Below, piece after piece: positions 37,839 to 53,159 of a stretch of DNA of 64,000 bases. Under the pieces are notes generated by a model. It searched no databases, was not told the origin of the DNA, and saw only the letters and a list, made by a program, of their open reading frames with translations. The stretch covers positions 2,232,001 through 2,296,000 of the forward strand of contig NZ_AP025739.1 of assembly GCF_003574315.2 (NCBI RefSeq), written 5' to 3'. Source of the stretch: Capsulimonas corticalis (GTDB lineage: Bacteria > Armatimonadota > Armatimonadia > Armatimonadales > Capsulimonadaceae). The translations under genes were made by a program, and so were the position numbers. Each line of letters begins with the position of its first letter. The first letter of the stretch is position 1.

Positions 37839-39989
37839 ATGAAAGCCTGTAACAGAAAACGCACAATGGCTGCGCTTGCCGCCCTAGGGGCGGTGGCGCT
37901 GACGATTCCGGCGGCGCCGCCAGCGTCGGCAAACTCTCAGGGCGCAATCCTGTACCAACGCGGGGGAGGGGATAATGTTGGATATGGTCGGTCGATACAA
38001 TTGCAGCACAGTGGCGCGTGGAATGGGACGATCTTATCGACATTTGAGCACTGGCATTACGGCGCGGGGGCGCAGCCGTGCATTATTCGGCAAAGCACCG
38101 ATGAAGGCCGGAGCTGGACGACGCTCGCCAATGTTTTTGACCCGCAAGGCTCCGACACCATCTGGCAGCCAGCGCTCTTTGAGATGCCCCAGCAGATGGG
38201 GAATTATCCTGCGGGGACCCTCGTGCTCGTGTTCGACGCCGTAGAGCCGGGGAATCCCAATCTTTCGGAATTGAAGCTATTCCATAGCACGGATCACGGC
38301 GCGAGCTGGACATACTCCAACACCTTTGAAGTCGGGCGCAACGATCAGCACGGCGTCTGGGAGCCGGCGCTCGTCATGGACGGCCTGGGACGGCTGGTTT
38401 GTTACTTCTCAGATGAGCGCCAGGCGCCCAACTACAGTCAGTTCCTCAACGCGATCCCCTCGACGGACGGCGGCGATCACTGGGGAGCCGAATTTCCGGT
38501 GGTCTACCATCAGGGATCGAATGTGCGGCCCGGCATGGCGACGGTGGTGAAGCTTCCGAACGGGCAGTATATGCTTGCCTACGAAAACGGCGGCGATCAA
38601 GGATATACGATCTGGTGCAAGACCTCGCCGGATGGGATCAACTGGGGGAATGTCGCCGATTATGGGTCGCAGATCAGCACTCCTGATGGGCGCTATCCCA
38701 CCGGCAGCCCGCAGATGGTATGGGATCCGCTGGGCGGACCGAATGGGACGCTGGTGCTGGATGCGCAGGTCGGGCACGTTGCCGGCGGCGGAATCGGCAT
38801 GGAGAACAATCAGATCCTCTACACGAGCACCAATCTGGGACAGGGACAGTGGAACTGGATGCCGACGCCGTTCTGGGCGAGCGCGCCGAACGATCCCGAC
38901 GCCACCACGAATTACAGCCCCAATCTGATGCTTTCCGGCGATGGGCGCACAGTGCGCGTCACCACGAAGTCCGGCGACGAGCGTACGGACGCCAGCAATG
39001 CGGGCGTCCTGCCGTACTATTCGCCGTTTGTCTTCGGCAACGACGCGGGATGGATGAACTACGGCGGCGCGTGGTCCGTGTCGGGGAGCGCTTACCACGA
39101 TTCCGATAATGGCGGCGGCAACAAGGCGATTTCGGGATCGACCGGCTGGACCAACTACACACTCAGCGGCGACGTTCAGGTCAACGCGGGCGGGCAGGCA
39201 GGCTTCCTTGTGCGCGCGTCCAATCCGGGAGTGGGTTACGACGCCTTGAACGGCTACTACGTTGGCTTGAGCACGAACGGCGCGGTGTTTTCGGGACGAG
39301 AGAACGGCGGCTGGACGCCGCTGGCGAGCGCTTCTGTCACCGGCGGCGTCGCCGCCAACACCTGGTATCACGTGACGATCTCCGCGCAGGGCGCCAACTT
39401 CTCCGTGACCGTGCAGCCCTCTGGCTCAGGAACGGTGATCGGATCGCTGAACTTCACCGACGCCACATTCCCCAGCGGCGCGATCGGCGTGCGGGATTTC
39501 CTTACCCCGGCCTCGTGGCGCGCCATCTCGGTGACGAACGCCGTGGACAACGGTCCATTGGTCAACGGTCACGCTTATCATCTGATCAACATGAACAGCG
39601 GCCTGTTTTTAGACAACCCCAACGGAACCAACGTCCACGGGACCTACTTACAGCAGTTCGTGGACACCTTCGCCACCGCGCAGCAATGGACCGCCACCAA
39701 CGCCGGCGGCAATAGCTGGGTCTTCGCGAATGTCGCCGGCGGCCTCGCCATCGACGATTATAATTGGAGTACGACGGCGGGAACGCTGATCGACGAGTGG
39801 GACAACTGGGGCGGCGCCGTCCAGCAATGGCAAGTCGTTCCGGTCAGCGCGAACACCTATCGGCTCATCAGCAACGTGAGCGGCATGAACATGGAAATCC
39901 AGAACGCCAGCCTCGCCCCCGGCGGCGCGGTCGGCCAGTTCCCCAACAACGGCGCCGCCTGCCAATACTGGTACTTACAGCCGCTGTAA
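37839..39989 (+). CDS. Secreted sialidase-fold (BNR) glycosidase with concanavalin-like and ricin-type lectin modules
   Basis: A 716-residue protein with a signal peptide (about residues 1-31, ending ASA). Residues about 35-390 form a BNR/Asp-box six-bladed propeller with boxes STDEGRSWTTL, STDHGASWTYS, STDGGDHWGAE and SPDGINWG. The next 170 residues (YGGAWSVSGSAYHDSDNGGG and onwards) form a LamG/DUF1080-like beta-sandwich. The C-terminal 140 residues are a ricin B-type lectin (YHLINMNSGLFLD, QQWQVVPV, YRLISNVSGMNMEI, CQYWYLQP). The fold suits GH33 sialidases or GH93 exo-arabinanases; the substrate cannot be decided from sequence. AAGGAG precedes the ATG at about ten bases. It acts outside the cell. 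Confidence 0.85.
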   Translation: MKACNRKRTMAALAALGAVALTIPAAPPASANSQGAILYQRGGGDNVGYGRSIQLQHSGAWNGTILSTFEHWHYGAGAQPCIIRQSTDEGRSWTTLANVFDPQGSDTIWQPALFEMPQQMGNYPAGTLVLVFDAVEPGNPNLSELKLFHSTDHGASWTYSNTFEVGRNDQHGVWEPALVMDGLGRLVCYFSDERQAPNYSQFLNAIPSTDGGDHWGAEFPVVYHQGSNVRPGMATVVKLPNGQYMLAYENGGDQGYTIWCKTSPDGINWGNVADYGSQISTPDGRYPTGSPQMVWDPLGGPNGTLVLDAQVGHVAGGGIGMENNQILYTSTNLGQGQWNWMPTPFWASAPNDPDATTNYSPNLMLSGDGRTVRVTTKSGDERTDASNAGVLPYYSPFVFGNDAGWMNYGGAWSVSGSAYHDSDNGGGNKAISGSTGWTNYTLSGDVQVNAGGQAGFLVRASNPGVGYDALNGYYVGLSTNGAVFSGRENGGWTPLASASVTGGVAANTWYHVTISAQGANFSVTVQPSGSGTVIGSLNFTDATFPSGAIGVRDFLTPASWRAISVTNAVDNGPLVNGHAYHLINMNSGLFLDNPNGTNVHGTYLQQFVDTFATAQQWTATNAGGNSWVFANVAGGLAIDDYNWSTTAGTLIDEWDNWGGAVQQWQVVPVSANTYRLISNVSGMNMEIQNASLAPGGAVGQFPNNGAACQYWYLQPL

Positions 39990-44047: not shown

Positions 44048-44217
44048 ACGATAAATGTCAAGCGCCGTTTTCACAATCTCTGAAGCTCATTAGCCTTTCC
44101 TTGCTCACATCGGTTAAATGCCATAGAAACATTTCACGGATTCCCACGTCTATAAAATTAGGAGAGCATGGAAATCGTCGCTCTGCTTTCTCACGCCTTC
44201 TGCAAGGAAAAACATTT

Positions 44218-44925
44218 ATGAAACACAGCCGTCCAACGTTGCGAGGGTTTACGCTGATCGAGCTCCTCGTCGTCATAGCCATCATTGCGATTCTCGCCGC
44301 GATTTTGTTTCCGGTCTTCGCCAAAGCGCGGGAAAAGGCGCGGCAGACGGCGTGCATCAGCAACACCAAACAACTGGGGCTGGCGTTTGTCCAGTATGTT
44401 CAAGACAACGACGAGGCGCTGCCGGCGTCCGGTGGCGGCACGGACCCCGCCGCGCCGGCGTGTACGATCGTTGCCTCGCCAAGCTGGGTGCTGGCTGAGC
44501 ATATCCTGAATACGACATCCGCCTGTCCGTCCAATCAACTACCTGTGCAAAACGGAGCGCTCTATCCCTATGTCAAGAGCGCGCAGGTGTACAAATGCCC
44601 GTCGGACTCGAACGCCGACGGCGATACGATCAGCTACACGATGAACTCCCGCCTGAGCGGAATGACCGACGCGTCCGTACAGGCTCCCTCGGGATGTATT
44701 CTTCTGGTGGATGAAAATACGGTCACGGGGCTGGGACACGTGCTGGACAACGGCAACTTCGCCGCGCCGACGACCGATCTTGCAAGCGGCGCCCCGAACT
44801 GGAACGATCTGCCGACTAACCGCCATACCGACGGCGCGGTGTTTTCGTTTTATGACGGGCATAGCAAGTGGATGCGGCCGGAGCGTCTAAAGTCGGCGAA
44901 CTTTGACCCGGCGGCGAACCCGTAG
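44218..44925 (+). CDS. DUF1559-type prepilin-like protein (type II/IV pseudopilin)
   Basis: A 235-residue protein with a class III prepilin signal: [20 protein letters not shown], cut after the Gly and followed by a long hydrophobic helix ([22 protein letters not shown]). The C-terminal H-X9-DG-type motif is present ([18 protein letters not shown]). This is the DUF1559 family, very abundant in Planctomycetes and Armatimonadota. Assembly would need a PilD-like peptidase and type II or IV machinery, none of which is in the window. AAGGAAAA precedes the ATG at 44218. It converges on the 905-aa paralogue gene. Confidence 0.92.
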
Positions 44926-44949: not shown

Positions 44950-47667
44950 TCAGGGCGTTTTTGCGGGGAGGGCGCTCTTTTCCGATCGTTTGCGCTTGGC
45001 AAGGGCGCTGAACGGATCGCCGTGGCTGTCGATGGTGAAATCCAGGACGAATCCATCCCAGCCCGGCTCCAGGGCGTTGACGGCGGCGATGAGCTGTTCG
45101 CGGGATTGATCCGACCAGAATACTGGAATGACGATATTCGTGCGCCAGCGCCGATGCGCGTACTGCGCCGGCGGCGTTGGCTTCTCGCTCAGCGTCGTTC
45201 TGGGCTTTGGTCTGTGCGGATCCAGCGACCGGGGATCGCTCCAGAGGCCATACCAGGTTGGCGTCTGGAACGGCGGCTCGGTTCGCAGGAACAGATTCGG
45301 CGGCGGCGATCCGGTTTCTCTTACCGATGACAGCAGTGTTTGCAGGAACGCCGAGCGCGTATTCACCAGAAGCGCGGTCCAGTCGTCATGGACGGAGCTG
45401 AGGGACGCCTGATTCGCGAATTCGGGGACGGATTGATTCATGGGCTCCTGGGCATAGTAGGACATCGTCTCGAAATCCACCGGATCAACATGGTCGCGCC
45501 GCAGCAGCGCGAGCCGCAATGTCGGGGTATATCCCATCCCTGCGCCGCGCTGATCGGCTTCGTAGTCCGGCGCCGATGCGTTGGAGAGGGCGATGTCGGT
45601 CACCCCGGGAGTAGCCGCCAGCCGCCGCAGCAGAGTCGTCAGAGTATCCTGAACTATCGGCGACGCCGGTGAGACGCGCAGGTTCGTATTCGGAGAAGCG
45701 GCGATGTCCGGCAGCAGATATTGGTAGAACTCGTCCGGCGCGATTTTGTTGTTCCACGCCGTTTCCTGAATGGAGTTCTCGCCGAGAATGGTCAGGTCCT
45801 GCGCGTCCAGAGGCGCATCCGCGCCCCAGTTCAGCGCGTTCACGTGCGGGATGATCGCGATCCCGCTTCCCTTGGTTTTGGCGATCGCGGCTTCCAGGAG
45901 ATTGGGCTTGCCGTCGAGATGGCTTTTCCCGCCGGAGAACACATCCAGCCAAAGCTGGTTGAGGCCGATCCGCTTCATGACGGCGATTATCCTGTCCAGA
46001 GATTTGACGCTGTCGGGGCGGACGAGCACGGCGCGGCGAGCGAAAGAAACGGCGGCCTCCGCGAGAACGGGCTTGGGCGCGCGGCTCGCGGGAGCGCCGA
46101 TCTCCGGGTCTTCCTCGAACGCTTCCTGCGCTTTCTTCATCGCCGCCGCGAACGTGATCGTGTCGGCGTGGTATTTCTTGAGCATCTCCGCCCGGCCGGA
46201 CGCTTGCAGCAGACCGTTCGGCTGAAGGTAACCGTCTAAAACGACAACGCCGTCGATGGATGGGGAGGTCAGCGAAATCGAGGGAGAGAGCGATAGGTCG
46301 ATCGGAAGATCCGTCGTCAGCCGGGTTCCATTTCCGGGCGTGATGGCGTTGTTGTTTTTCTGAACCGCCTTGCGAACAAAATCCTGCTGCTCGGGCGACA
46401 TCTTCTCCAGGGGTGTGGTGATCGACTGGGCCGATCCATTCAGCGCGGAGAACTCGGTCTGCTGGGAGCCGGTCAGGGCGAAGTCGCTGATGGCGGGCGG
46501 CTGGTCGGCGAGATGATGCGTTTCGGACATTCGATCGTTGGCGTCCACGATCGCCTGCCGGCGGCCCATATCCGTCTCCAGCAGGAAACGTGTGATGATT
46601 GACTGGCGCGTTCCGAGCCCCAGCCGGTCGTTGGTGAGGACATAGGCCGGCCCGACCTGGCGATACGTTCCTCGGACACAGAGCGCGACGGCCTTCAGGA
46701 AATCCCGGGCGCGTCCGGATCGTGGTCCGAGGATCGTGACGCTTTGCGTTTCATAGCGCCGGTCCGCGTAAAGCTCGATCCGTGTCGCAAGTCCGATTCG
46801 CGTGATCAGGTCCTGCACGGTCTTGACGCCGCTCAAATCCACGACCGCGCCAAGTTCGTCGCGGTCGTAATCGAGATCCGAATCCTTCAGAACGTTCGGC
46901 GCGGCGCTGCGCAGCGTCACTCCGTAGATCGTGTCTGGGGCCGGCTGCCATGGCGGGACTTGGCTTGCCTGATAGTACCTGCCGCCGGCCGGCGGCGATA
47001 TTCCGTATTTTGCGTTTGGCTGCCCCGCCACCGAGATCGCGTAATTGGTGCGGTGCGACAGCCGCAGACGCGCCGACGCGGCGTTCTCGCGCGACAGCGT
47101 CGGATCTTTCTCCTCCTCCGCGCCGCTTCCCTGAGGAAACAATGTGATCGGCGTGATGGGAAAGATATCGGTAAAGAGCTGGCGCTGCTCGTCCGTCGTC
47201 AGATCGGAAAGCCCAATTCCTTCCGGGCCGCCGAGCATTCGCCACTGACTATCGTCGAGCATAGACACCAGCAGCTGGAATGCGTCGGAGGCGGGCGTGT
47301 CGGCGAAAGGATCCTGCGCTTTGGGGCTTGTGTTGAGCACGGTCATCGTCGCCGGAGCGATCGCCGTGACATCGTGGAAGTCACGAACAATGCAGCCGAA
47401 CTCCTCGCCGATGCGCCGGACCCGGTCTTCGGGAGCGGGCGGAGCCGCGTCCTTCGGCAGCGATATCTGCTCCGCGCCGACAATGAGATAGATGTCCGAC
47501 CTCGGCGGCTCGGACGCCGCCAGCGCCTGCGCCAGCGTCAAATGGCGTTCGCCAATGGTAAATCCTCCCTCTTCGTCGATACTGATAGCGTCTGCGTGAA
47601 CGGGAATGGACGGAAACGTGAGCAAGAGGAGCGCGGCGCCGAGATGGAGCGCAGATCGTGGACGCAT
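44950..47667 (-). CDS. Large exported protein, third of three tandem paralogues (STN-like plus GHL10-like)
   Basis: A 905-residue protein with a signal peptide (MRPRSALHLGAALLLLTFPSIPVHA). The layout is as in its two upstream paralogues: an N-terminal region with the LSDLTTDEQRQLFTDIFP motif, and an STN-like segment (DLSGVKTVQDLITRIGLAT, ELYADRRYE, GTYRQVGPAYVLTND). A C-terminal TIM-barrel-like part begins AVLVRPDSVKSLDRIIAVMK, then has IGLNQLWLDVFSGG, GYTPTLRLALLRRDHVDPVD and PGWDGFVLDF. The last two blocks resemble GHL10/COG1649 proteins. No similarity to a characterised enzyme is evident. The gap after the second paralogue is 24 bases, so all three are one operon. It is the most diverged copy in its central linker. 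Confidence 0.7.
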   Translation of the reverse strand: MRPRSALHLGAALLLLTFPSIPVHADAISIDEEGGFTIGERHLTLAQALAASEPPRSDIYLIVGAEQISLPKDAAPPAPEDRVRRIGEEFGCIVRDFHDVTAIAPATMTVLNTSPKAQDPFADTPASDAFQLLVSMLDDSQWRMLGGPEGIGLSDLTTDEQRQLFTDIFPITPITLFPQGSGAEEEKDPTLSRENAASARLRLSHRTNYAISVAGQPNAKYGISPPAGGRYYQASQVPPWQPAPDTIYGVTLRSAAPNVLKDSDLDYDRDELGAVVDLSGVKTVQDLITRIGLATRIELYADRRYETQSVTILGPRSGRARDFLKAVALCVRGTYRQVGPAYVLTNDRLGLGTRQSIITRFLLETDMGRRQAIVDANDRMSETHHLADQPPAISDFALTGSQQTEFSALNGSAQSITTPLEKMSPEQQDFVRKAVQKNNNAITPGNGTRLTTDLPIDLSLSPSISLTSPSIDGVVVLDGYLQPNGLLQASGRAEMLKKYHADTITFAAAMKKAQEAFEEDPEIGAPASRAPKPVLAEAAVSFARRAVLVRPDSVKSLDRIIAVMKRIGLNQLWLDVFSGGKSHLDGKPNLLEAAIAKTKGSGIAIIPHVNALNWGADAPLDAQDLTILGENSIQETAWNNKIAPDEFYQYLLPDIAASPNTNLRVSPASPIVQDTLTTLLRRLAATPGVTDIALSNASAPDYEADQRGAGMGYTPTLRLALLRRDHVDPVDFETMSYYAQEPMNQSVPEFANQASLSSVHDDWTALLVNTRSAFLQTLLSSVRETGSPPPNLFLRTEPPFQTPTWYGLWSDPRSLDPHRPKPRTTLSEKPTPPAQYAHRRWRTNIVIPVFWSDQSREQLIAAVNALEPGWDGFVLDFTIDSHGDPFSALAKRKRSEKSALPAKTP

Positions 47668-47691
47668 GGCTGTCTTTCTGTATGGGCGACG

Positions 47692-50430
47692 CTAATCCTT
47701 CGCCGTCAAGCTTTTCTCAAGATGATCGAGAGCGTCCACATCGCTCTCCGGGCTGTTCAGGTCGATCACAAACCCATTCCAGCCGGCTCCAATGTTCTTG
47801 ATCGTATCGGCCATGGCCTGCCGTGTTTGGAAACCCCATATCGGCAGGATGGCGATCGCGGTCGTGGTTTGCGCCCGGGCCTCCTGCTCGACGGCGGCTG
47901 GGGTTCCTTCTTCCCAGGAATGCTTTGTGGCGTGAGGAATCGGCGCCGCCGGATTCCGCCAGAGGCCGTACCATCCCTGGACCCAGGATGCTCCCTGAGA
48001 GCAAACCATCAGCCCCGTGGACTGCCCCGCGCTGGACTGGGCGGCGGCAAGCAGATTCTTCAGAAAGTTCGTCGCGATTTGCGTTCGGTATTCGTTCCAC
48101 TTGACTGAGACGGCGCTTTGGACCTCCCAATCATGGAACTCGGGAATGCGCCACTGGTTGACGGGCGAATTGATGTAAACCTCACCATCCAAATCGATCG
48201 GATCGACATGATTGGCTCGCAGGAAGGCCAGCCTCGCCGCCTCGGTATATCCCAGTATGTACCCCGAGCCAGTGTCGTTATCGCCAGAAGCGAGAGAATA
48301 ACCCGGCGGCATCTGCCCTGATACGACGATCGTGGGGATGTTTGGGGTGGAGGCGAGGCGCGAAACGAAGGATACGAGCGTTCGAGACACGGCGGAACTC
48401 GCGGGATCGACGTATAAATCCGTCGGCTGCGGCTGCTTGTCGGCTTCCTCCGGCGACATCCCCTGATAGGCGACCTTCTCAAATCTCTGCCGCCAGGCAG
48501 CGGCCTGCGCGGAGTTTTCGCCGGACATCGTCAAATCTTGCAGATCCGCAGGCGCGTTGGATCCCCAGTTCAGCGGCGTGATCATCGGCAGCACCGTGAT
48601 TCCCATTCCCTTCGCCTTCGCGCGCGCCGCGGCGAAGAGATTGGGTTTGTCGTCCAGATGACTTTGGCCGCTGGAGAAAACATCGAGCCAGAGCTGATTG
48701 AAGCCGATCGCGTGCATTTGATCGATCATCTTGTTCAAGTCCGCGACGGTTTGCGGCCGGGCGATCACCCCGCGCACGGGGAACGGAGCAAAGATCGCCG
48801 CGAAATTTGGTTTGGGCGGCGCCGGCGAGGGCGGCGGCTTCACATCTGTCGCGGGAGTGGCTTCGGGCGTCTCGGCGCTGCGCTTCTGGTTCAATTCGTT
48901 GATCAGCTTGGTGGAGGGCTTCAGCAGACCGGTTCGGCCCAGGTAATCGTCCAAAACGATCGGTCCCGGGATGGCCGGCGTGGACATCACAACCGTCGTG
49001 TTGAGCCAGAGTGATAAGGGACGGGAAGCCGTAAGCCGCATCGGAGTGGAATTCCCTCCATTGATTTGAACATTGGCGTTCCACTTCTGAATCAAATCCT
49101 TCGCGAGCGCCTGCTGGCTTGGCGTCAATTGATCCAGCGGGGCCGTGAACGTGATGTCGTTTCCGGGATAATCTCCGCTTTGCTTACGCGCCTGCGTCTT
49201 TTGGTCGTCGGTCATGGAAAGACCTTCGTCAAACTGATTGTTGTCCAGTCCCTTCTGTGTCTGATACGCCCGATCGCCCGCCGCGTCGATGGCGTTCTTT
49301 CGCGCCATTTCGGCTGTCTGCGCGAAGCGAATCAGGGTGACTTGACTGGCTCCCGCGCCAATCCGCGCATTTGTGAGCACATACGCCGGGCCGATTTTGC
49401 GGTATGTCCCGCGAACGCAGAGCGCCAGGGCTTGCAGCAAATCCCGGGCGCGGGCGGTGGACGGGCCGCGCAGCAGTACATTTTGCTTCTCATAGCGCCG
49501 GTCGGCGTAAAGCTCGATGTGCGTGGCGACTCCGATTCGCGTGACGAGATCGCCGACGGTTTTGATTCCCGTCAGATCGATTGCCGCTGTCAGCGGCGCG
49601 GCGTCGTAATCCAGGTCCGATTCCTTGGGGGTGTTGGGAACGGTGGCGCGCAGCGGTACGCCGTAGAGCTTGGTGACCCCGTCGTCGTTCCCAGTGATAT
49701 TCATGGCGGTGTAATTCAATTCGCCATTCGACGGCGCGTCCGCGATCAGCGAGGAATTGTCCTTGCCTTCGATCGGCAGCCCCATCCGAACGCGCTGCCC
49801 GATCCGCAGTTTCGCGCGCTGGAGATCGTCGGCCGTCAGCTTCGGGGAAGAGGACGTGTCGCCGCCGGTCAATCCGCCGGTTCGAGGCGCGAGGAGCACA
49901 GAGTCGATGGGGAAGATGGCGAGGAAAAGGTTCTTCTGATCGTCGGTCGTCAAATCCGACACCCCTATGCCGACTTTTCCTGTGATCAGCTTCCACTGTC
50001 CTTCGTCCAGGCTTCCCAGCAGCATTTTGAACGAATCGGTCGGCGGCATTCCATCAAAGGGGTTGGGTTTGCCGGGATCGGCGTTAAACACCGTCATGGT
50101 CGGCGGCGCAATGGCCGTCACGCCATGAAAGTCCTGCGCAAGATAGCCATAAGCCGCCGCGACCAATGGCGCTCGGGTGTCGGGATCCAGAAGCGGCGTA
50201 CTCGCGGAGCCTGGAACGGCGTCGGCGCCGACAGCGAGCGCCACATCCGTGTCGGACGGCGACGCTTGCAGCAGCGCCTGCGCCAGCGTGGGCGGGCCGG
50301 ACGGCGCGGCCTGGCCGGCGACTGCGGCTTGGGTCTGCTCCGTCGCGGGGGGCGGGGCGTCCGCGTAAGCCATGGAATTCCAACCGAGCAGGGCCGCGCA
50401 CGCGATGAGCCAGGTGTGTCGATCGATCAT
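47692..50430 (-). CDS. Large exported protein, second of three tandem paralogues (STN-like plus GHL10-like)
   Basis: A 912-residue paralogue. After a signal peptide (MIDRHTWLIACAALLGWNSMAYA) it shares VGADAV, the QDFHGVTAIAPPTMTVFN block, the GIGVSDLTTDDQKNLFLAIFP motif and an STN-like segment (IDLTGIKTVGDLVTRIGVAT, ELYADRRYEKQNVLL, GTYRKIGPAYVLTN). The C-terminal part has GFNQLWLDVFSSGQSHLDD, GYTEAARLAFLRANHVDPID and GWNGFVIDL. Its ATG overlaps the stop of the first paralogue by 4 bases (ATGA), so translation is coupled. A Pro-rich linker separates the two halves. Which residues would be catalytic, if any, is unclear: HVDP(V/I)D and the final GW(D/N)GF-(L/I)D are invariant among the three copies. 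Confidence 0.7.
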   Translation of the reverse strand: MIDRHTWLIACAALLGWNSMAYADAPPPATEQTQAAVAGQAAPSGPPTLAQALLQASPSDTDVALAVGADAVPGSASTPLLDPDTRAPLVAAAYGYLAQDFHGVTAIAPPTMTVFNADPGKPNPFDGMPPTDSFKMLLGSLDEGQWKLITGKVGIGVSDLTTDDQKNLFLAIFPIDSVLLAPRTGGLTGGDTSSSPKLTADDLQRAKLRIGQRVRMGLPIEGKDNSSLIADAPSNGELNYTAMNITGNDDGVTKLYGVPLRATVPNTPKESDLDYDAAPLTAAIDLTGIKTVGDLVTRIGVATHIELYADRRYEKQNVLLRGPSTARARDLLQALALCVRGTYRKIGPAYVLTNARIGAGASQVTLIRFAQTAEMARKNAIDAAGDRAYQTQKGLDNNQFDEGLSMTDDQKTQARKQSGDYPGNDITFTAPLDQLTPSQQALAKDLIQKWNANVQINGGNSTPMRLTASRPLSLWLNTTVVMSTPAIPGPIVLDDYLGRTGLLKPSTKLINELNQKRSAETPEATPATDVKPPPSPAPPKPNFAAIFAPFPVRGVIARPQTVADLNKMIDQMHAIGFNQLWLDVFSSGQSHLDDKPNLFAAARAKAKGMGITVLPMITPLNWGSNAPADLQDLTMSGENSAQAAAWRQRFEKVAYQGMSPEEADKQPQPTDLYVDPASSAVSRTLVSFVSRLASTPNIPTIVVSGQMPPGYSLASGDNDTGSGYILGYTEAARLAFLRANHVDPIDLDGEVYINSPVNQWRIPEFHDWEVQSAVSVKWNEYRTQIATNFLKNLLAAAQSSAGQSTGLMVCSQGASWVQGWYGLWRNPAAPIPHATKHSWEEGTPAAVEQEARAQTTTAIAILPIWGFQTRQAMADTIKNIGAGWNGFVIDLNSPESDVDALDHLEKSLTAKD

Positions 50431-53159
50431 GGATTCCCTTCCGTCGTCGATGCGGATTTCGTGGCGGCTTTGGTTTTGATGAGTGGGGCGAGCGGGTCAT
50501 TTTCCGCGCTGGTGATGTCGAGCGCGAAGCCGTCCCAGCCAGGCGCGATATTGGCGATTGACCAGGCGAGTTCGTTTGGCTCCAGTGCTCCGTTGGCGAT
50601 CAGATTATAGATGTTCGCGCGCCATCGGGCGTGCGCGTACTTGGAAAAGTCTTGATCCCCATCCACGCCGCGACTCTGCTGTTCGGTGAGCGTGGGAAGC
50701 GGGGCGCCGGGATCGTCCCAGCGTCCATACCAGTCCGCGCGCCACTCCAGAGTGCGCTGCGCTTTGACGAATACGTCCATCGGGTGAGCGCCGCTGCTCC
50801 GCGCCGTTCGCCAGAGGCGCGTTAGGAAGGCGTGCAGGAGGTCCGCGCGGTAGTCGCTCCAGTCGTGCTGTGCATTGATTTCGATGCCCCAGTCATCAAA
50901 TTCCGGCACGGATGTATCCACGTCGACGGCTGCTTCAAAGGTATCGGGGGCGAGGTCGACCGGGTCGACATGGTCCCTGCGCAGAAAATCGAGACGCAGG
51001 GCGGGGGTATATCCGAGCGAGTAATCGCCTGCTTGAGACTGGGAGCGAAATGGACGATCGTAGCCATGCACGCTCGTTTCTCGCAAAGCGATCCCCGTAA
51101 CCCCGGGCGTCGCGGCGATACGCTGGACGATGCCGGTGAGGGTTTCCGTGGTGGAGGAAGCGCCGGGGCTGACGTAGGTCTTCAGCGGGGTCGGCTGCCG
51201 ATCGGCCTCGTCCGGCGACATCCCTAAATCGAGGATGCGCATTCGGCGCTGCCCCGAGACGCTTGCCTCGGCGGAGGTTTCGCCGAGCATCGTGAGGTCC
51301 TGGGAATCTTTGGGCGCCGACGCGCCCCAGTTCAGGATATCCATGCGTACGCTGACGGAAATGCCGGCGTTCTTCGCCTTCGCCAGCGATTCCTTCAAAA
51401 TCGCGTCGTTTTCGCCCAGGTGATTTTGGCCTTCGGAAAATGCGTCCAGCCACAATTCATTGAAGCCCAGCGTCTTCATATCGGCGACGATGTCGTCCAC
51501 ATCTTTTACCGTGCGGGGGCGCGCAATGACGGCGCGACGGGAAAAGGGGCGAAACGCCTCGGCGAGCTGCGGGGGCTTTGGCGCGGCGTGCTCCGGCTGA
51601 GGATGAGCCTTCGCTTCCTCAATCGCTTTGCGCTGCTCGTCTTCCTGTCGTTTTTTCTCCATCTCGTCACGCAGTTTTGCCGATGGCTCCATCAATCGGT
51701 CCGTCTGCAAGTAGCTGTCCAGAACGATGGGCGTCGGGAACGCGGGAGTTTCGAGGCTCACGGCAGTCGCCGCCATCAAGAGGATGGGGTACTCCCCGGT
51801 GGGAACCGTCACCTGGCCGAAGCTGTCCTGAGGGTCCGGCGTGGGGGGATTGGCTTTGTTCCAATCCTGAACGATCTTGGTGATGGCGGTCTGCTGCGCC
51901 GGCGTCAGTTTGCGGAACGGGACCTCCGTGCTGTGACCCGAATTGGATGGCGCAAAAAGCGTCTCTTTTTCCGCATCGTTCAGGGAGAACACATTGTCCT
52001 GTGTGGATAAGTCGGTGAACGATCGGCCGAGGTAGATTTTGTCGCCGGAGGCGGCGATTGTCGCCTGACGCATCATATTTGCTTCCTGCACGAACCGCGT
52101 CAGGATCATGCCGCGTGTTCCCTCGCCCATGAGGTCGTTCGTGAGGATATATGCGGCTCCGACTTTGCGATAGGTTCCGGCGACACACAGCGCCAGCGCC
52201 GCCAGCAGGTCTTTCGCCCGGGCGGACGGGGCGCCGAGCGCGGTGACCGGACGCTTTTCCAGTCGCCGGTCGGCGTAGAACTCCATCTGCGTTGCGTAGC
52301 CAATGCGCGCGATCAAATCGCCGACCGTCGTGACGTGTGTCAGATCGATGGGCGCTGAGAAAATACTCGCGTCATAATCCAGATCCGCCGCCTTCAATGT
52401 GTTCGGGACAACCGCGCGCAGCTTCACTCCATAGATCGTATCGCGCGTATTTGACCCAAAGTCTCCGTTATACATTTGATAGACGCCCGAGGCTGTCTCG
52501 GGAGCGTCGGCCGTAATGCCCGATTCCGGTCGATCGCCGCCGTTGACGGAGATCTGAACGCGGCGTCGTACATGCAGTTTGCCCTTGAGCGCATCCGCCT
52601 GCGGCAGTTTCAAGAGCGTCTTTTCATCCTCACCGCCATAAACCAGCACGCCGCCTTTTCTGGGATAAAGCGTCGCCTCTTTGCCCGGAAACAGCGCCGT
52701 GAAGAGCTGCCGCTGCGCATCCGTGGTCAGATCGGATAACCCAAGCCCTTGGTCTCCCGTCAGCATCTTCCACTGTCCATCCTCCAGGCTCGCCGCCAGC
52801 AATTTGAACGCGTCGGGCGGCGGCATCCCATCATAAGGATTAGGCTTGCCGGGATTGGTGTTGAGCAGCGTCATAGTCGGCGGCGCGATGGCCGTGACCC
52901 CGTGAAAGTCCCGGACAATCTCCCCGTAGGCCGCCGCCACCTGCGGAACGCGCGCGTCGGGATCGGGAGGCGTCGCGTCCTTGAGCAGTTTGACCACATC
53001 CGCGCCGACCGCAAGATAAACATCCTCACGCGGTTGCTGTGCGCGCTGAAGCGCCTGCGCGAGCGTCAGAGGCGCCGGGGGCGCATCGGCGGCGATCGCG
53101 GCGGCGGGATGACTGAGCAGAACGGCGGCATAGGCGGCGAAGAAGTAGTTTCTGGTCAT
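50427..53159 (-). CDS. Large exported protein, first of three tandem paralogues (STN-like plus GHL10-like)
   Basis: A 910-residue protein, first in the operon. Signal peptide residues 1-24. Residues 85-160 contain DFHGVTAIAPPTMTLLN and LGLSDLTTDAQRQLFTALFP, shared by all three copies. Residues about 268-342 look like an STN domain (IDLTHVTTVGDLIARIGYAT, FYADRRLEKRPVTALG, GTYRKVGAAYILTND), the short domain that precedes secretins and TonB receptors. A charged linker (495-520) leads to a TIM-barrel-like region (about 540-885) with FNELWLDAFSEGQNHL, NAGISVSVRMDILNWG, GYTPALRLDFLRRDHVDPVD (716-735) and APGWDGFALD. No transmembrane helix follows the signal, so it is periplasmic or secreted. Function unknown. 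Confidence 0.7.
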   Translation of the reverse strand: MTRNYFFAAYAAVLLSHPAAAIAADAPPAPLTLAQALQRAQQPREDVYLAVGADVVKLLKDATPPDPDARVPQVAAAYGEIVRDFHGVTAIAPPTMTLLNTNPGKPNPYDGMPPPDAFKLLAASLEDGQWKMLTGDQGLGLSDLTTDAQRQLFTALFPGKEATLYPRKGGVLVYGGEDEKTLLKLPQADALKGKLHVRRRVQISVNGGDRPESGITADAPETASGVYQMYNGDFGSNTRDTIYGVKLRAVVPNTLKAADLDYDASIFSAPIDLTHVTTVGDLIARIGYATQMEFYADRRLEKRPVTALGAPSARAKDLLAALALCVAGTYRKVGAAYILTNDLMGEGTRGMILTRFVQEANMMRQATIAASGDKIYLGRSFTDLSTQDNVFSLNDAEKETLFAPSNSGHSTEVPFRKLTPAQQTAITKIVQDWNKANPPTPDPQDSFGQVTVPTGEYPILLMAATAVSLETPAFPTPIVLDSYLQTDRLMEPSAKLRDEMEKKRQEDEQRKAIEEAKAHPQPEHAAPKPPQLAEAFRPFSRRAVIARPRTVKDVDDIVADMKTLGFNELWLDAFSEGQNHLGENDAILKESLAKAKNAGISVSVRMDILNWGASAPKDSQDLTMLGETSAEASVSGQRRMRILDLGMSPDEADRQPTPLKTYVSPGASSTTETLTGIVQRIAATPGVTGIALRETSVHGYDRPFRSQSQAGDYSLGYTPALRLDFLRRDHVDPVDLAPDTFEAAVDVDTSVPEFDDWGIEINAQHDWSDYRADLLHAFLTRLWRTARSSGAHPMDVFVKAQRTLEWRADWYGRWDDPGAPLPTLTEQQSRGVDGDQDFSKYAHARWRANIYNLIANGALEPNELAWSIANIAPGWDGFALDITSAENDPLAPLIKTKAATKSASTTEGNP

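Follow-up and report, generated by a model that had tools for sequence, protein, structure and literature searches.

Three adjacent genes of Capsulimonas corticalis raise the question of what kind of exported protein they encode and why such a protein should be present in several divergent copies. In the window, which denotes the whole stretch of 64,000 nucleotides analysed here, they follow one another in the same orientation on the minus strand, to which all coordinates of parts of the three genes given below also refer. Gene A (50427..53159, ORF 53159-50427) encodes a protein of 910 aa and is followed by gene B (47692..50430; 912 aa), whose start overlaps the stop of A in an ATGA, and by gene C (44950..47667; 905 aa), which begins 24 bases after B. 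The open reading frames confirmed this arrangement as it had been given in a preliminary description. The operon proposed there stands as far as the tandem coupling on one strand is concerned, while co-transcription, deduced from gene spacing, is putative. Promoter and terminator scans of the locus yielded no excess over shuffles, and neither RNA families nor tRNAs were found at the locus. The products are clearly paralogous, as B and C share 43% and 41% identity with A in an alignment of the three proteins, and a genome search with A retrieved B at E 2e-203 and C at E 5e-182, far beyond chance. Each protein starts with a Sec-type signal peptide recognised by eye (in A 53088..53159, with an AIA-AD site), and none contains a second strongly hydrophobic stretch beyond it. 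Together with the common motifs SDLTTDxQxxLFxxxFP, LWLDxFSxG, LRxxHVDP(V/I)D and GW(D/N)GF, these signal peptides bear out the earlier account of both protein ends.

The order of domains is well supported and identical in the three proteins: a module with the motif QW-GL-DLTTD-Q is followed by an STN/N0-like domain, which a helical linker connects to the TIM barrel at the C-terminus. The N-terminal module covers residues 80-160 of A (52680..52922) and was placed by alignment in B (49903..50145) and C (47152..47394). The STN/N0-like domain extends over residues about 256-345 of A (52125..52394), and the barrel, which is related to GHL10 proteins, over residues about 538-905 (50445..51548); both were assigned by profile-profile comparison and fold, and were transferred by alignment to A to B (49357..49626 and 47701..48786, respectively) and C (46618..46887 and 44965..46047). 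An AlphaFold model of A, based on an alignment of 10 sequences (pLDDT 75, pTM 0.70), places the barrel at about 533-907, and the N-terminal part modelled alone reached a pLDDT of 76. A limited examination of residues about 40-250 and 346-530 identified no fold. While the architecture is well supported, the function is what we infer further below. In addition, the N-terminal module recurs in other proteins of Armatimonadota (L083:445-1776, L084:1857-3131, L085:856-2916, L086:343-2502, L087:858-1511 and L088:696-1487). These proteins have the module in common with the A/B/C family but, unlike the latter, gave no barrel match and are linked by weak profile matches only. In L083 the module sits, as judged by eye, behind an STN-like stretch.

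The preliminary description had suggested that the chain unites an STN-like part with a GHL10-like barrel. Searched separately by profile and fold, both halves are supported, and no family of Pfam or NCBIfam spans the full length. With respect to the first half, three STN regions from elsewhere in the genome matched in profile-profile comparison with a probability of 79 and an E of 1.6e-5 over 61 columns, as compared to an E of 0.035 for the best of 50 column shuffles. Moreover, the top folds for residues 260-345 in the N-terminal model of A were secretin N0, STN, PupR and DotD domains, led by EscC (3gr5; Z 6.7 over 83 residues) and the N0 domain of PilQ (Z 6.3), followed by PupR, MxiD and InvG, with FpvA lower in the list. 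On the other hand, Foldseek found no match under E 0.001 for the N-terminal model, and with E values up to 1 admitted, PF07660 (STN) matched neither A, B and C nor 37 members. Profile and fold are each modest lines of evidence (Z 6.7, pLDDT 75), yet taken together they are convincing for a predicted domain that resembles, in both respects, the STN and secretin N0 domains of PF07660, EscC, PilQ, DotD and the signalling domain of FpvA. Secretins and TonB receptors carry a channel or a receptor barrel after this domain, whereas the present family, in which no such Pfam domain was found behind STN, carries the TIM barrel in that place. Elsewhere in the genome, at about 2.156 Mb, an 810-aa BlaR1-type M56 peptidase-like protein (L073:31-2460) bears an STN domain that scores above the Pfam cut-off, an unusual fusion.

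The second half was compared with GHL10 proteins. Profile-profile comparison yielded a probability of 97.3 and an E of 2.7e-11 against 31 GHL10 proteins of relatives, and 97.5 and 5e-12 against four of the same genome, while reversed and shuffled barrel profiles remained above an E of 0.7. The model of the A barrel aligns with Cwp19 (5oq3) at Z 16.4 and an rmsd of 3.5 over 248 residues. GH20 enzymes are tied with Cwp19 (Z up to 16.6), but the likeness to GH20 hexosaminidases is one of fold, since neither Pfam nor the PDB yielded a match by sequence. The family hence shares both the TIM barrel fold and profile-profile homology with GHL10 (PF02638; Cwp19, DUF187/COG1649), but differs from it in the fusion to an STN domain and in lacking a direct Pfam match: even with E values up to 1 admitted, PF02638 was detected neither in A, B and C nor in 37 members. 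The DUF4434 family (NF007404) was rejected as a candidate with 12.8 bits against a curated cut-off of 344. Within the same phylum, one genome of 3.7 Mb (G023) contains 21 GHL10 matches, several of which belong to open frames that span about 900-1400 codons.

Homology of the barrel does not extend to the active site. Six residues are nearly invariant among the 31 GHL10 proteins from relatives, namely W38, Q68, R70, H113, W115 and D193 (numbered as in the L075 protein; for comparison, the active site of Cwp19 includes Asp196, PMC5765458). At the aligned columns of 48 family sequences these residues are almost completely replaced, with W38, R70 and W115 kept in none, H113 in one, Q68 in three and D193 in five. 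With its active-site residues lost to this extent, the barrel cannot be classed by sequence as a standard GHL10 enzyme; of the earlier reading as a GHL10-like, glycosidase-like barrel, the relationship stands while the glycosidase is not supported. What has been kept from GHL10 is an Arg at strand 1 (40/48), a Pro before strand 4 (39/48) and, in the helix that follows this strand, a Trp (40/48) and an Arg (36/48), all of them probably structural residues.

In place of the former site, the family displays invariant residues of its own. An alignment of the family, wider than the comparison of the three copies that had been suggested for finding invariant acidic residues, revealed D621 (D or E), D732 and D735 in 48 of 48 sequences, besides the invariant G716 and R722, and D881 in 40. 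According to the predicted strands, D621, R722, D732 and D735 are located in loops of the face that usually bears the active site. Position 694 of A, beside the GHL10 Asp, is D or E in 26 of the 48 sequences; A has Glu here, whereas B has Gly and C has Asn, the alignment being uncertain by one residue at this point; at the matching place, Cwp19 has two Asp in succession (PMC5765458). The 22 barrel sites with the highest conservation include 15 in loops after strands (15 of 122 sites versus 7 of 212 elsewhere; Fisher p 0.002), with the face assigned from predicted strands. Such loops form the face that carries active sites or ligands in barrels of this type. This concentration of conserved sites suggests that the barrel has probably retained a functional site, albeit a different one.

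Regarding the extent of the family, no entry of Pfam or NCBIfam covers A, B and C, nor does a consistent family emerge over 37 relatives. A sequence search of the PDB gave nothing above chance, plasmid and phage collections contained no match, and the papers and libraries searched hold no earlier description. To our knowledge, the combination of STN domain and barrel belongs to no described family. The C. corticalis genome (7.65 Mb, one contig) encodes 12 members, all with open reading frames, of which five form an array near 6.57 Mb and two others a pair near 6.19 Mb. The A-B-C profile matches 33 of 291 Armatimonadota genomes, and 15-18 matching stretches, some of them fragments, occur in each of G007, G015 and G018. 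A first profile scan of GTDB contigs returned no relatives and a second one seven loci, all from Armatimonadota and three of them from Armatimonadaceae. Profile A2 gave weak matches in 83 of the 291 genomes, including short ones to the STN or barrel part alone; weak A2 matches were left out of the family counts, and the short ones are probably ordinary secretins and GHL10 proteins. As to gene order in other genomes, arrays recur, but the number of copies varies from one to five. No recurrent neighbour or partner gene was found over about 20 loci, and the neighbouring genes provided no lead to function. The DUF1559 prepilin-like protein that adjoins gene C (window 44101-44925) was dropped as a functional link because the genome harbours at least 150 such proteins. 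The window also encodes a 716-aa protein (37839-39989), apparently exported, that combines ricin-type lectin with 3-keto-disaccharide-hydrolase-like domains, and a carboxypeptidase-regulatory-like repeat protein is encoded inside the five-copy array (L045:6205-7479).

Phylogeny explains how the arrays arose. A, B and C form one clade (support 100/98), the sister of which is the single copy of genome G004, and the five-copy array and the 6.19-Mb pair likewise constitute one clade each (both 100/100). The triplet is a lineage-specific duplication. In several other genomes, too, adjacent copies group together, and these array-wise clades imply that tandem duplication took place many times independently in Armatimonadota. 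One close pair of members (L023 and L024) resides on a very long branch (2.95), and its placement in the family is unsure. The domains diverge at unequal rates: the STN domain is the best-conserved part, its identity amounting to 60-69% among A, B and C and to 0.39 across all pairs, while the barrel varies, the corresponding values being 37-39% and 0.22. Between two close members, a dN of 0.07 and a dS of 0.73 point to purifying selection.

This constancy of the dock and variability of the barrel form the main ground for the functional reading that we prefer, although we rate it somewhat below an even chance: A, B and C, tandem paralogues of an undescribed exported family, would combine a constant STN dock with divergent glycan-binding barrels, each copy a variant. 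The protein would be exported to the envelope, where its STN/N0 domain may dock either on other copies or on one shared partner. The divergent barrels, whether periplasmic or exposed at the cell surface, might bind different glycans, and each copy would represent a variant with its own ligand. Binding of glycans by the barrels is probable, and a barrel could bind, or with its rebuilt site cleave, a glycan that differs between copies. What the analysis shows are export signals, homology, predicted fold and evolution, whereas docking and glycan binding are inferred. The fast divergence of the barrel could stem from relaxed constraint instead, against which the invariant barrel sites argue. In its extreme form, such relaxation would make the genes decaying duplicates without a common function, in keeping with the deep divergence between copies and the loss of the GHL10 active-site residues; given that all 12 genome copies are open, that invariant sites persist across the phylum and that dN is well below dS in the close pair, decay is scarcely credible.

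The invariant acids may also be read as those of a working enzyme. The barrel would then be an active glycoside hydrolase, its site rewired from D621, D732, D735 and D881, with the copies as substrate variants and the STN domain as envelope anchor. The near-universal presence of these residues in loops or at strand ends of the active-site face, as well as the frequent acid at position 694 next to the GHL10 Asp, speak for this explanation, but it has to accommodate the loss of almost all GHL10 active-site residues (0-5 of 48 kept) and the Gly of B and Asn of C at 694, owing to which an acid there is not common to all three. We regard it as rather unlikely. The preliminary description had further considered subunits with divided roles or substrate variants. 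Secretin N0 domains sit in rings, and this, the tight gene coupling and the superior conservation of the STN domain would suit a single hetero-oligomer in which A, B and C are assembled via their STN domains and play separate roles. However, arrays of one to five copies that originated in independent duplications, and a sister genome with a single copy of the A-B-C clade, render this arrangement improbable; with the triplet being a lineage-specific duplication and one of many arrays, divided-role subunits are not favoured over variants.

Extended to the whole family, the preferred reading of a constant dock with divergent glycan-binding barrels leads to a bolder proposal, which we offer as doubtful speculation: in a system so far seen only in Armatimonadota, a constant N0-type dock might link a single envelope assembly to pseudo-glycosidase barrels that diverge after repeated duplication, and tandem duplication would build up a repertoire of glycan receptors. 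The locus introduces a large unnamed family of a little-studied phylum, with 12 copies in this genome and similar numbers in some relatives, in which an STN/N0 domain is employed in a setting other than secretins or TonB receptors, and in which a glycosidase-type barrel carries a rebuilt site. In this family, the idea of a constant dock combined with variable ligand modules can be put to the test.
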